A stretch of DNA of 64,000 nucleotides from Humisphaera borealis (GTDB lineage Bacteria > Planctomycetota > Phycisphaerae > Tepidisphaerales > Tepidisphaeraceae), in NCBI RefSeq assembly GCF_015169395.1, contig NZ_CP063458.1:186001-250000 (forward strand). The letters run 5' to 3'. Position numbers and translations under genes: made by a program. Within the stretch, counting starts at the first letter, position 1. The number at the start of each line of letters is the position of its first letter. The notes beneath the pieces are model-generated. The model did not search any database, had not been told where the DNA came from, and worked only from the letters and a program-made list of their open reading frames with translations. Below, piece by piece: positions 5,096-55,797 of the stretch.

Positions 5096-5220
5096 AGAGA
5101 CGAAGTCAGGAGTCGGTAGTCAGAAGTCAGTACAAAGCATCGAGCCGACTTCCGACTACTGACTACTGACTACTGACTACTGACTACTGACTACTGACTA
5201 CTGACTACTGACTACTGATT
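5096..5220. repeat. Nine-copy GACTACT tandem repeat with complementary upstream arm
   Basis: Bases 5154-5216 are nine perfect copies of the heptamer GACTACT. Just upstream, 5104-5132 (AGTCAGGAGTCGGTAGTCAG and following AAGTCAGTA) is an imperfect reverse complement of the array, so the transcript can fold into a long stem between two operon genes. It lies 14 bases before the next start codon. Confidence 0.9.
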
Positions 5221-12388: not shown

Positions 12389-12478
12389 GTGCCATGGGCT
12401 GACGTAGTCGTCTGCCCGTGGCAGCGTTTCTGCGAAGTCGCATCGCCACGGGCAGCGGAGTACCGCAGCCCATGGCAC
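12389..12478. repeat. CATGGG palindromic element, copy 1
   Basis: Two 33-base arms, each beginning GTGCCATGGGCTG from its outer end and ending CTGCCCGTGG, flank a 24-base loop. The arms differ in their middles: the left reads ACGTAGTCGT, the right (reverse complemented) CGGTACTCCG. A second copy at 55632-55718 has the same two arms in the opposite order, and a lone right arm lies inside tsaD at 19215-19247. Confidence 0.92.
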
Positions 12479-13853: not shown

Positions 13854-13958
13854 GTAGGGTGAGCGTACTCGCCCACGCGTTTGTGCGCGGCGACTTGTGA
13901 GTCGAGTTTTCGTCCAGGGCGTGGACGGGTAAAGCGTGGGCGAGTACGCCCACCCTAC
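13854..13958. repeat. GTAGGGT palindromic element with 25-base arms
   Basis: The left arm at 13854-13878 starts GTAGGGTGAGCGTACTCG and the right arm at 13934-13958 is its reverse complement with one mismatch. The loop holds a further small hairpin CGTCCA-gggcg-TGGACG. The outer end GTAGGGT is shared with elements at 20188 and 22302. Confidence 0.9.
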
Positions 13959-18772: not shown

Positions 18773-18974
18773 CTCCCTCTCCCCTGTACTCGGGGGAGTG
18801 GGTTGGGGTGAGGGACCGAACGTACGGCGTTGTAGTTTCGCGAAAAGCGATCCGCACTTTGAGGGTCGAACGTTCCCCATCCGGCGGACACGGTTTAAGA
18901 GGTTTGCCACGGAACAACGCCCGACGTTCGGCCCCTCACCCCGGCCCTCTCCCCCGAGTACAGGGGAGAGGGGG
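18773..18974. repeat. CTCCCTCTCCCCTGTACTC palindrome between the protease gene and tsaD
   Basis: The left arm (18773-18832) begins CTCCCTCTCCCCTGTACTCG and the right arm (18914-18974) ends CGAGTACAGGGGAGAGGGGG. About 55 of 60 bases can pair when a few small bulges are allowed. It occupies almost the whole 255 bp gap and ends 26 bases before the tsaD start. Confidence 0.88.
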
Positions 18975-19000: not shown

Positions 19001-20191
19001 ATGCCTCGCATCCTCGCCATTGAATCCACCTGCGACGAAACCGCCGCCGCCGTCGTTGAAGACGGCTGGCGGGTGCTCTCCAACGTCGTTGCGACGCAGA
19101 TCGATCTGCATGCCAAGTACCGTGGCGTCGTTCCGGAGATCGCGTGCCGGGCGCACATTGAGAATATCCTGCCGGTCATTCAGGAGGCGATCGCCCACGG
19201 GCAGGTCGCGCCGGCCACGGGCAGCGGAGTATCGCAGCCCATGGCACCCGAAGTCGGTCTGACCGAGTCCCGTGCTTCCGCCTCCGATTCATCCTTTATC
19301 CTTCCTCCTTCATCCTTTGATTTCGACGCCGTCGCCGTCGCCCACCGCCCGGGTCTTGTCGGCTCGCTGCTCATCGGCGTGACCGCCGCCAAGACGCTCG
19401 CGTGGTCGCTCGGCAAGCCTTTGATTGGCGTCGATCATGTGCACGCGCACCTCTACAGCGTCGTGCTGGAGAAGAACGAGCACCCGCCCATGCCCGCGAT
19501 TGGGCTGGTCTGTTCCGGCGGGCACACGGCGTTGTACCTCGTGAAGAGCTGGACCGACGTCACGCTCATCGGCTCGACCATCGACGACGCCGTCGGCGAG
19601 GCCTACGACAAGGTCGCCGCGATCCTGGGCCTGGGCTACCCCGGCGGGCCGCACATCGACCGCCTGGCCGCGACCGGCGATCCCAAGGCGATCGCCTTTC
19701 CGCGGCCGTTGCTTGGTCCGGGTTCGCTCGACTTCTCCTTCAGCGGCCTGAAGACGGCGGTGCTGTACGCCGTCCGCGGCGTGCCGACGAAGGACGGCCC
19801 GCACATCCGCGACGAACGCCATCAACCCCCAGCCCCCACGGGCCAACGGCTCGCCGACGTCTGCGCCAGCTTCCAGCAGGCCTGCGTCGATGTGATCGTC
19901 AAGAAGCTCAAGCGCGCCGCCGAGAAGTACGGCGCGAAATCGATCCTCATCGGCGGCGGCGTGTCGGCCAACCGTGGCCTGCGGGCCGCGCTCCAAGGCG
20001 GCGGCACGGCCAGCACCTCTGGTGGCACCGTCGTCTCGCCGGTGTTGCGACTGCCGGTCTATTTCCCACCCCTCAAGTACTGCACCGACAACGCGGCCAT
20101 GAGCGGCGGCCTGGCGCACGTCTACTTCGAGCAACGCCGCTTCAGCGAACTCTCGCTCGACGCGATCACATTCAGCCAGTTCGCTAGGTAG
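19001..20191 (+). CDS. tsaD: tRNA N6-adenosine threonylcarbamoyltransferase, with repeat-derived insertion
   Basis: Transfers the threonylcarbamoyl group to A37 of ANN-reading tRNAs. 396 residues against a usual ~340. Clear family motifs: IESTCDETAAAVV, HADY-like HAKYRGVVPEIACR, the metal-binding HVHAHLY (HxxxH), GLVCSGGHTAL, and the C-terminal CTDNAAM metal ligand. Residues about 68-107 are extra compared with the family. That stretch is encoded by repeat DNA: a 33-base arm of the CATGGG element (19215-19247) and a TTCATCCTT-type tract (19288-19320). The frame stays open. The stop codon TAG lies in a GTAGGGT repeat end. Confidence 0.93.
   Translation: MPRILAIESTCDETAAAVVEDGWRVLSNVVATQIDLHAKYRGVVPEIACRAHIENILPVIQEAIAHGQVAPATGSGVSQPMAPEVGLTESRASASDSSFILPPSSFDFDAVAVAHRPGLVGSLLIGVTAAKTLAWSLGKPLIGVDHVHAHLYSVVLEKNEHPPMPAIGLVCSGGHTALYLVKSWTDVTLIGSTIDDAVGEAYDKVAAILGLGYPGGPHIDRLAATGDPKAIAFPRPLLGPGSLDFSFSGLKTAVLYAVRGVPTKDGPHIRDERHQPPAPTGQRLADVCASFQQACVDVIVKKLKRAAEKYGAKSILIGGGVSANRGLRAALQGGGTASTSGGTVVSPVLRLPVYFPPLKYCTDNAAMSGGLAHVYFEQRRFSELSLDAITFSQFAR
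19215..19247. repeat. Single arm of the CATGGG element inside tsaD
   Basis: Thirty-three bases starting CCACGGGCAGCGGAGTATCG match the right arm of the 12389-12478 element with one mismatch. The length is exactly eleven codons, so the frame of tsaD is kept. A related GGGCAGG string lies immediately upstream (19200-19206). Confidence 0.9.
19288..19320. repeat. CATCCTT tract inside tsaD
   Basis: Reads TTCATCCTTTATCCTTCCTC then CTTCATCCTTT, which resembles the right arm of the palindrome at 25295-25375 that lies inside another gene. It encodes SSFILPPSSF. Confidence 0.75.
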
Positions 20192-24210: not shown

Positions 24211-26145
24211 CTACTTCTTTCTCTTTTTAATTCTGGTCGGAGGTGGTGCGTCGGGGACGGGAACGACCTGAGGCGAACGCGGCGCGGTCAGTCCCTTGAA
24301 CAAAAGGAACGCCATCATCGCCCCGGCGAGGAACTGCAGCGTGGGGAGGCCGCCGTCGCGGAAGCGGTCGCCCCAGAAGTCTCGCGGGGAATCAACGGAG
24401 AGCCGCAGGCGGTCACCGGCGTTGTTCTGGGCGGCGCGGCTGGGGTTGTCGGGTGCTTCGATGACGTCGTACGCGACAATCGGCGTTCCGGCCGGGCCGG
24501 GGACCTGGACGACCTGTATCTGTGGAATCTGGTGCTGCAGCGTCATCTGCAGCATGACGCCGATACTGAAATCCAGGAGCAGGCCGACGAGCAAGACCCC
24601 GCGCAGCCGCAGCGAAATGCGCCAGACGCCGCCGGCGACGAGCGCGACGCCGATGAGGACCATCGGCTGAAGGCAGATATGGGCGACGCCGAAGCGGTCG
24701 ACACCGCCGTACACCGCGACGCCGGCGAAGAAGACGATCGGGATGAACGCGAGCCAGAATCGCCGGACGGGTCGGACGGTCGGGTCTTTGCCGGCGAGGG
24801 CGCGGACGATCAGCAGCACGGCGACGACGCACCCGGCCGATCCCAGCCCGCCGGGCAGGCTCACCTGGTAAATGAGAAACGCAGAATCGCGCAGCTTGCC
24901 GGCGAACGACGGCTGGTCGAGGTCTGGGTCGCGCTGGCTCACGTCCGCCGCCCAGATCAGGCCGGGCTTCTGCACGATCGTCGGCACGAGCGTGTTGCGG
25001 ATGTTCTTCACGATGTTGCCGACGTTCTCGGTCGGCGTCATTTTCACCGAGTCGCTGACGGCGCTGGTCGAGGTGAAGGTGGTGGTGACGCCGTAGTGAC
25101 GGATCGACCAGGGGAACCACGCCGCGAACACGAGCAGGCTGACGGCGGCGATGGTGGCCGCCTCCCGGAACTTGTTCGGCCGACGCCACCAGACGGCCGC
25201 GACGTAGTGCAACCCGAGGAACAAGCCGTAAGGGCCGACGGAGAAGTGGACGAGGAAGCCGATGCAGAGGAGCGCGAAGGCGAGAGGGAAGAGTAAGGAT
25301 GAAGGATGAAGGGTGAAGGATGAAGCAGGAGAAGCGACCTCTTCCTTCATCCCTCCGACTTCATCCTTCATCCTTTGGCGGCGGAACGCCGTCAAGTACA
25401 CCGCGATCGCCGCGATCGCGTAGTACGCGGCGAACAGCTTGGTCCAGGTGTAGGTCAGGTTCTGGGCGAACATCGGGCTAGCCGCCAGAAGGGCGGCGAG
25501 GGTCCAGGGCGTCTTGCGGACGACGCGGGGCGAGAGCCTGATCAGCCGGGGAACGAGAATCGCCAAGGGCAGAAAGACGAGCGAGTTCAGGAAGACGAAG
25601 ACGACCTGATACCCCTCCATCATCTGTTCCATCGGCGCGGCTTGCGACAGCAGGCTGGCCGTGAGCACGTTCATCATCGGCGGCCGCATGGGGAGCGGGT
25701 ACTGGCCGATGAACTTGAAGGCATAGTCGCCGCCGCCGAAGAAGAAGCTGAACCGCTGGTAGTGTTCCACCCAGTCGCCGCCCCAGGTGCCGCCACCGAA
25801 GTTTCGGACCATCGACAGCAGCACCATGCCCCAGACGAACAGCAGCCCCCAGATGATCAGCAGCTGGCGGACCTGCCTACACCGAAGCAGTTGCAGCCAG
25901 TCCTTCCATGCCGCGAGCGCGAGCACCATCGACAGAAATGCGATCGCGATATGCCCCGGGATGTCGGCGATGAAGGTGAGGTCGGCGACGAAGAGGCCGA
26001 ACCCCAGGACGTAGTTCAGGAAGAGGCCCAGACCGATCGCAACGACCAGTCTTTCGCGCGGCGCCAGCCGCAACGGCCGGACCAGCAGCAGGCCGGGGCC
26101 GAACGTGTAGACGATCAGGAGAAACAGGAGGTGCGGGAACCACAT
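24211..26145 (-). CDS. Polytopic membrane protein, glycosyltransferase-39-like shape, with repeat-encoded loop
   Basis: 644 residues with about 12-14 predicted membrane helices and a long extracytoplasmic loop after residue ~330. The overall pattern recalls GT-C fold sugar transferases or O-antigen-ligase-like proteins, but no diagnostic motif is certain. Residues encoded by 25375-25295 (27 codons, rich in K, E, S and P) are a palindromic repeat read in frame and fall in the loop after the helix ending YLTAF. The C-terminus is basic (TRIKKRKK). It is followed 34 bp upstream on the same strand by the acetyltransferase gene. Confidence 0.7.
   Translation of the reverse strand: MWFPHLLFLLIVYTFGPGLLLVRPLRLAPRERLVVAIGLGLFLNYVLGFGLFVADLTFIADIPGHIAIAFLSMVLALAAWKDWLQLLRCRQVRQLLIIWGLLFVWGMVLLSMVRNFGGGTWGGDWVEHYQRFSFFFGGGDYAFKFIGQYPLPMRPPMMNVLTASLLSQAAPMEQMMEGYQVVFVFLNSLVFLPLAILVPRLIRLSPRVVRKTPWTLAALLAASPMFAQNLTYTWTKLFAAYYAIAAIAVYLTAFRRQRMKDEVGGMKEEVASPASSFTLHPSSLLFPLAFALLCIGFLVHFSVGPYGLFLGLHYVAAVWWRRPNKFREAATIAAVSLLVFAAWFPWSIRHYGVTTTFTSTSAVSDSVKMTPTENVGNIVKNIRNTLVPTIVQKPGLIWAADVSQRDPDLDQPSFAGKLRDSAFLIYQVSLPGGLGSAGCVVAVLLIVRALAGKDPTVRPVRRFWLAFIPIVFFAGVAVYGGVDRFGVAHICLQPMVLIGVALVAGGVWRISLRLRGVLLVGLLLDFSIGVMLQMTLQHQIPQIQVVQVPGPAGTPIVAYDVIEAPDNPSRAAQNNAGDRLRLSVDSPRDFWGDRFRDGGLPTLQFLAGAMMAFLLFKGLTAPRSPQVVPVPDAPPPTRIKKRKK
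25295..25375. repeat. AAGGATGAAGGATGAAG palindrome inside a membrane-protein gene
   Basis: Left arm AAGGATGAAGGATGAAG (25295-25311) and its perfect 17-base complement (25359-25375). Total length is 81 bases, exactly 27 codons, so the host frame is kept. More AGGATGAAG words lie between. Confidence 0.92.
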
Positions 26146-54295: not shown

Positions 54296-54351
54296 TTGTG
54301 GTGCGGGCTTCAGCCTGCACATTCGGGTGCAGGCTAAAGCCCGCACCACAA
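54296..54351. repeat. TTGTGGTGC palindrome
   Basis: TTGTGGTGCGGGCTTCAGCC and its complement GGCTAAAGCCCGCACCACAA with one mismatch around a short loop. The outer words (TTGTGGTGC/GCACCACAA) match the inner palindrome at 22348-22401, so it is a second family member. It starts four bases after the stop of the HTH gene. Confidence 0.93.
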
Positions 54352-55512: not shown

Positions 55513-55621
55513 CTCTGTCTGAAAACTCGATTCGTGTGCCATGCCCACGCGGGACGATTCAGAAGGTCCAATGCCTCAGCCCGGCGTGGGCATGGCACAC
55601 AACTGGGGTTATCAGACAGAG
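55513..55621. repeat. CTCTGTCTGA palindrome enclosing a perfect 17 bp palindrome
   Basis: Outer arms CTCTGTCTGA (55513-55522) and TCAGACAGAG (55612-55621). Inner arms GTGTGCCATGCCCACGC (55534-55550) and GCGTGGGCATGGCACAC (55584-55600) are exact complements. Confidence 0.93.
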
Positions 55622-55631
55622 CCTGGATTGG

Positions 55632-55718
55632 GTGCCATGGGCTGCGGTACTCCGCTGCCCGTGGTACGACGTTCCTCGCGCGAAACCACGGGCAGGCGAC
55701 TACGCCAGCCCATGGCAC
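55632..55718. repeat. CATGGG palindromic element, copy 2 (inverted arm order)
   Basis: The left arm GTGCCATGGGCTGCGGTACT and following TCCGCTGCCCGTGG is identical to the complement of the right arm of copy 1 at 12389-12478. The right arm here matches the complement of copy 1's left arm with two mismatches. So the whole element is inverted relative to copy 1. Confidence 0.93.
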
Positions 55719-55797
55719 CCACTTTTAATTCTTGGCTTTGACAGAGCGAGGCAATGTCCGCGCCATCCTCCATCCTCAATCTTCAATCCTCTTCCCC

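Follow-up and report, generated by a model that had tools for sequence, protein, structure and literature searches.

The closest described counterparts of the locus reported here are the Rickettsia palindromic elements (RPE) and the protein-coding palindromes of Wolbachia (Ogata 2000, 2002, 2005; reviewed in PMC2229807), and an RPE-bearing guanylate kinase is translated and active (PMC2229807). These elements are short, occur between genes as well as in frame inside conserved genes, and leave the gene in place, all of which is also true of the heptad palindromes described below. The hairpins of the REP/RAYT systems are likewise short, mostly intergenic and sometimes found inside genes (PMC3733652, PMC3116915), and Correia/NEMIS and other MITEs resemble the heptad palindromes in being non-autonomous inverted repeats (PMC2229807). 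Among MITEs of the Correia/NEMIS type, only the version with an open frame occurs inside ORFs (PMC2229807). Repeats with a seven-base unit are also known. One study describes GGGAATC and GGGGAYT of Xanthomonas and Nostoc as G-quadruplex repeats that occur in one or two genera; like AAGGATG they are tandem 7-base units and mostly intergenic, and about 70 inverted heptamer pairs are reported from Xanthomonas campestris (PMC4692102). The TAACTGA repeats of Beggiatoaceae, Cyanobacteria and Bacteroidetes resemble those of AAGGATG in being based on one exact heptad, in their patchy distribution across phyla and in the presence of some copies in ORFs (PMC4679880).

The genome of Humisphaera borealis is a single contig of 7.19 Mb, from which a window of 64,000 nt was analyzed; positions are those of the window unless a contig is named. 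A palindrome of 81 bp, assigned to neither strand and built from degenerate copies of the tandem unit AAGGATG, occupies positions 25295..25375. Its first arm (25295..25331, plus strand) is purine-rich on the plus strand (AAGGATG AAGGATG AAGGGTG AAGGATG AAG...); on the minus strand, which is the coding strand, it forms the pyrimidine arm and translates as SSFTLHPSS. A spacer of 7 nt (25332..25338, no strand) separates it from the second arm (25339..25375, minus strand), which is purine-rich on the minus strand and translates as RMKDEVGGMKEE. The second arm consists of the heptads AAGGATG AAGGATG, a break, GGATGAA and GGAAGAG, and the variant stretch GTCGGAGG interrupts the heptads ahead of the TGA register. 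An earlier note on this DNA had the coordinates, the length and the perfect 17-nt outer arms (AAGGATGAAGGATGAAG / CTTCATCCTTCATCCTT) exactly right, but the palindrome as a whole is larger than those arms, with ungapped full arms of 37 nt that are 84% complementary. RNA of the coding strand is predicted to fold at -51.8 kcal/mol (z of -8.2 against dinucleotide shuffles). The element ends in AAGGATG / CATCCTT with no CGTC end, its foot carries no GTAG or CGTC tag, and its unit contains GG only, without G3 runs.

The palindrome lies within a gene of 644 codons (24211..26145, minus strand) that encodes a polytopic membrane protein of 644 aa, and the ORF is open across the entire tract. The insert corresponds to about residues 257-284, at the junction of two predicted membrane helices. 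A Pfam search of the protein gave no match. An AlphaFold model based on a 5-sequence alignment (mean pLDDT 67) places helices at 234-267 and 281-299, with a dip in confidence at 261-280, where the insert is located. The claim that frame and topology are both preserved is upheld by the open ORF and by the helix-loop-helix arrangement retained in the predicted model. The best Foldseek matches were the GT-C glycosyltransferases AglB, Pmt4, EmbB and ArnT, at E values of about 0.02 or worse, and the likeness of the modelled protein to a GT-C-type glycosyltransferase fold may be taken as a lead only.

A search of the genomes of relatives, chosen at the level of genus, family and class, yielded four homologous genes in 3 of 60 relatives, at 31-41% identity; a separate related-locus search with the host protein returned no relative. 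None of the four homologues contains the insert, and 5-6 residues are found there instead. In two split-match homologue pairs, the alignment ends at query residue 254/257 and restarts at 287/288. The homologues read WTKL...WQKQ-EPWRI-IAALA where the host protein reads FRRQ-RMKDEVGGMKEEVASPASSFTLHPSSLL-FPLAF. The earlier note expected orthologues to lack 27 residues and regarded the same residues in distant orthologues as evidence against its reading. No such orthologue was seen and the residues are absent from all four homologues, but the protein has gained some 22 residues net rather than 27, a length that homologues of this identity fix only to within a few residues. Because the gain is smaller than the 27 codons of the palindrome, either the target sequence was partly replaced or the loop was already variable.

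That insertion of a repeat occurred at this site is almost certain. Our preferred reading, to which we give a probability of about 75%, is that the 81-bp tract is a dispersed, non-autonomous palindromic repeat that was inserted in the membrane-protein gene and tolerated there. It is based on the absence of the tract from homologues, its position at an inter-helix junction, the preserved frame, and the presence of copies between and inside genes both here and in other phyla. An artefact of assembly or gene calling might be suspected, as repeats are prone to misassembly and the gene caller used was simple. Such an artefact is scarcely credible in a single-contig genome with an ORF that runs uninterrupted through the tract and with homologues aligning on both sides of it, and the same pattern recurs in many independent assemblies.

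The AAGGATG word matches the window 11 times against 1.3 expected, and the word pair has 18 exact matches in the whole genome against none for a reversed control. The sequence used as the reversed control, (GTAGGAA)n, is itself a further heptad word, with 22 repeats in the genome of another planctomycete (G342). Over 570 kb of the H. borealis genome, there are 35 period-7 runs compared with 2 in a Markov shuffle, with a similar excess at periods of 14, 21 and 28, and 82 inverted repeats compared with 1. Other heptad words that occur in hairpin arms include AGTAGTC, AGTAGGC, AGTGCTG, GAATGAC, GAACATC and AGATCTG, among more, and the remaining hairpins belong to REP-like families (GTAGGGTCCGCC..., GGGTGGCATGGGC..., TTGTGGTGCGGGC...) or have arms of 9- or 10-mers. 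The 81-bp palindrome is one member of this large hairpin population. A heptad hairpin of a different word lies at 5104-5218, where a perfect (GACTACT)9 array has AGTCAGA/AGTCAGT units just upstream, and REP-type hairpins of several families (GCCATGGGC, GTAGGGTGAGCG, TTGTGGTGCGGGC and others) are found at 12389-12478, 13854-13958, 54296-54351, 55513-55621 and 55629-55721. Elsewhere in the genome, inverted pairs of REP type are in frame in the genes for valyl-tRNA synthetase (ValS; G000:C1:1038458-1041676), an AroD-AroE fusion (G000:C1:1915396-1917072) and a hydantoinase (G000:C1:934666-936702). A low-scoring ORF (G000:C1:1527883-1530108) contains three REP hairpins plus heptad tracts and is probably a repeat-rich or decaying gene.

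Genome-scale hairpin counts covered 2.17 Mb of contiguous sequence and selected 20-kb stretches, with genes called by a simple codon-bias caller made for this analysis. The 2.17 Mb contain 33 heptad hairpins, of which 25 are intergenic, 5 are at a gene end and 3 are in ORFs, although 84% of the bases are coding; this deficit points to purging from genes. The count of copies inside and outside genes that the earlier note had called for thus does find copies in genes, but as exceptions. Intergenic heptad hairpins sit near stops and starts and are over-represented between genes of the same direction (22 of 25 against 14.4 expected, p 0.002), and the other hairpins favour convergent gaps (44 against 19.7 expected). 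This placement, together with the high stability of the hairpin and the proposal that TAACTGA heptads upstream of starts are regulator sites (PMC4679880), could be explained if the hairpin were a functional RNA or DNA element, such as an attenuator, an mRNA stabiliser or a protein-binding site, with a regulatory role for copies in genes. We consider this improbable, given that words, lengths and spacers vary freely, that the host genes have no common function, and that copies in genes erode, as in tsaD and in the pseudouridine synthase of the same-genus relative.

We examined 18 AAGGATG blocks in the genome, of which nine are intergenic, three overlap a gene end and six were called inside ORFs, namely the host gene, TsaD, MiaB, an RluA-type pseudouridine synthase, a weak multi-REP ORF and a doubtful gene start. 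The tsaD gene (19001..20191, plus strand) has a compound insert that adds 34 residues, which are missing from 13 aligned relatives of other genera. A single heptad arm at 19288..19318 (plus strand; TTCATCC TTTATCC TTCCTCC TTCATCC TTT) translates as SSFILPPSSF, and half of a REP-type repeat, GCCACGGGCAGCGGAGTATCGCAGCCCATGGCACCC, lies in the same loop (19214..19249, plus strand). The 'similar tract' reported earlier from tsaD is therefore real as a heptad arm, but it is a single arm adjoining a half REP and not a second copy of the palindrome. In the same-genus relative, the TsaD insert is shorter, and its DNA still shows eroded heptads. Immediately upstream of tsaD, at 18775-18972, is a 198-bp inverted repeat with arms of 59 nt (CCCTCTCCCCTGTACTCGGGGGAG...). 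The tsaD match in a class relative (L341, genome G026) contains an in-frame TGA.

MiaB carries an AAGGATG element in frame, in a loop of variable length across the family, and the same loop in the MiaB of another genus (genome G004) is occupied by an unrelated palindrome of heptads, GTGATCG/GTGATCA, with arms of 30 nt. In the pseudouridine synthase, the element is present in both species of the genus and is more eroded in the second, and the alignment gaps are of three. A putative U32-type peptidase gene, named by sequence, contains a heptad palindrome in the same-genus relative (L365, G001 contig C812), and the same gene here (G000:C1:2122850-2125573) has a REP pair at another site. The view that the repeat family enters genes in a tolerated way is supported by in-frame copies in TsaD, MiaB and the pseudouridine synthase and, in other phyla, in MurD, ValS, GH31, DUF2298 and further proteins.

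Inside genes, the heptad unit constrains the reading frame. On the purine strand, a run of three AAGGATG units is closed in all but one of the three frames, but on the pyrimidine strand every frame is open. Any frame that crosses a palindrome meets one purine and one pyrimidine arm, so that copies in genes must read RMKDE...SSFILHPSS. In both the host gene and MiaB, a variant heptad in the purine arm breaks the run ahead of the TGA register. The words AGTAGTC, AGTAGGC and GAATGAC have no open frame on one of the strands, a possible reason why none was encountered inside genes, but GAACATC is open and shows that closure is not the whole story. The suggestion that the lengths of palindromes within genes are always multiples of three failed, as this is true of only 7 of 17 and 3 of 8 spans, so that 81 = 27 x 3 does not reflect a rule. 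It is the net change alone that has to be divisible by three, and failing cases go unseen because the gene is lost.

In order to find copies in other phyla, AAGGATGAAGGATGA-N(4-34)-TCATCCTTCATCCTT was searched for with exact 15-nt arms in 257 Gb, comprising one genome per species. At least 119 stretches in at least 8 phyla matched, compared with about 1e-5 expected by chance according to our own arithmetic for an even base composition. The taxa among the matches listed are Planctomycetota, Acidobacteriota, Chloroflexota, Hydrogenedentes, Sumerlaeota, Nitrospirae, Ignavibacteriae and Betaproteobacteria; many carriers are metagenome-assembled genomes, and Herpetosiphon geysericola DSM 7119 is also among them. 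The distribution is patchy, with three perfect AAGGATG units in only 5 of 294 planctomycete genomes. Among the matches listed, the 121 copies are 43-96 bp in length and have constant outer ends, AAGGATG in 65 and CATCCTT in 66. Seventeen of these 121 lie in long ORFs, all reading RMKDE in the single open frame. Among these listed copies in ORFs, 12 have Pfam matches (MurD twice, ValS, an oligopeptide ABC transporter, a radical-SAM protein, PSD1/PSCyt2, GH31, a histidine kinase, an FMN oxidoreductase, DUF2298, a molybdopterin enzyme and a MalT-type regulator), and three others look like antisense frames. In two Anaerolineae-related genomes (L178 and L229), the element is at a similar site in murD. 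That the 27 residues are a selected addition with a new function for the membrane protein would fit the kept frame and the retention of the insert, but this is very improbable when the same peptide recurs at unrelated sites of unrelated proteins, as expected of a by-product of a DNA repeat. It is highly probable instead that the insert is tolerated without function for the protein. We considered phages as the vehicle and rejected them, as 2.9 million viral contigs gave only 17 stretches, some contigs having several copies.

How the copies arise is less clear-cut. No excess of target-site duplication was detected at k = 2-9 among the 121 elements listed. Most spacers are unique among the 121 copies, although some are common within a genome (L173/L228/L243, L170/L180 and neighbours in L205). 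Variants in the outer heptads are identical between the two arms in 13 of 16 cases against 6.4 when permuted, a result that is independent of how elements were selected; the own arm is the best match in 23 of 33 elements, which is partly circular since elements were chosen as inverted repeats. The 11 Y1_Tnp loci of the genome have no AAGGATG or other tested heptad within roughly 3.3 kb, and a link of the heptad palindromes to neighbouring RAYT genes was rejected; REP-type words do occur at these loci. Sampling was of one genome per species, and the nearest relative stands at 77-79% protein identity.

Unique spacers are also compatible with generation in place, in which a short chance heptad expands by polymerase slippage and template switching then makes the palindrome, independently at each site and with no mobile unit. 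The strong enrichment of runs at periods of 7, 14, 21 and 28 in many unrelated words, the lack of target duplication, the mirroring of the two arms and the existence of single arms, as in tsaD, are all consistent with such an origin, and polymerase slippage has been discussed as the cause of heptamer excess in bacteria (PMC4692102). We regard it as a serious rival, though clearly less probable than the preferred reading. Copies from at least 8 phyla agree in both the word and the outer ends, AAGG...CCTT, some copies within one genome have a common spacer, and slippage in conserved coding loops would require a seed, which relatives do not show. Selfish dispersal is favoured over generation in place, with some reserve, and the spacers common to L173/L228/L243 and to L170/L180, and those in L205, point to copying of whole elements.

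Under the preferred reading of a dispersed and tolerated repeat, insertion would be roughly indifferent to genes, and copies that break genes would be purged. To survive, a copy would have to change the length by a net multiple of three, present its purine arm in the only frame without TGA (RMKDE...), and lie in a surface loop or at a domain junction that tolerates it. After insertion, the arms would drift within the limits of the frame. The least certain step is the spread itself, which may proceed by single-strand hairpin copying, through a HUH-type transposase or template switching during replication. A single-strand mechanism is suggested by the lack of target duplication, the mostly unique spacers and the arms that mirror each other's variants, and we put it forward tentatively, at somewhat less than even odds. 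It is more doubtful still that a mobile family of AAGGATG palindromes, with sister words in the same genomes, crosses phyla in the form of single-stranded hairpins and with no known transposase to move them, repeatedly adding RMKDE...SSFILHPSS loops to conserved proteins. The findings make testable how short repeats spread without a transposase, why bacterial genomes so often show a period of seven bases, and to what extent conserved enzymes gain new loops from DNA repeats. They also call for caution in annotation, where peptides such as SSFILHPSS or RMKDEG signal repeat DNA and not protein homology.

Among the papers listed by a limited search of the open-access literature, none describes the repeat under AAGGATGAAGG, CCTTCATCCTT, SFILHPSS or FILHPSSF, and no account came up of palindromes made of heptads within the coding genes of several phyla. 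REP-type hairpins are abundant in this genome, which also has Y1 transposases, but REP units consist of one stem with a tag, GTAG or CGTC, whereas the heptad palindromes have untagged arms of tandem heptads and none was found at a Y1 transposase. MITEs of the Correia/NEMIS type show target duplications and conserved interiors, neither of which was seen in the heptad palindromes. The heptamers of Xanthomonas and Nostoc are of G-quadruplex type, unlike AAGGATG with its lack of G3 runs, and in-frame insertion in conserved proteins does not appear to be a subject of that study (PMC4692102). The TAACTGA repeats are direct and not palindromic, with one inverted case in the main genome (PMC4679880).

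RPE are 105-146 bp in length and occur in Rickettsia only, whereas heptad palindromes are 43-96 bp (81 bp here) and occur in free-living bacteria of many phyla. The RPE of R. conorii end in CGTC (PMC3733652), whereas the heptad palindromes have arms of tandem heptads and end in AAGG/CCTT. The heptad palindromes work like RPE but probably do not belong to that group, as their length and ends set them apart from the published descriptions. The best-known protein-coding palindromes are those of Rickettsia and Wolbachia; in the present analysis such palindromes are found in a planctomycete with a large genome and in Acidobacteriota, Chloroflexota, Hydrogenedentes and others, and the carriers across these phyla have one seven-base word in common.
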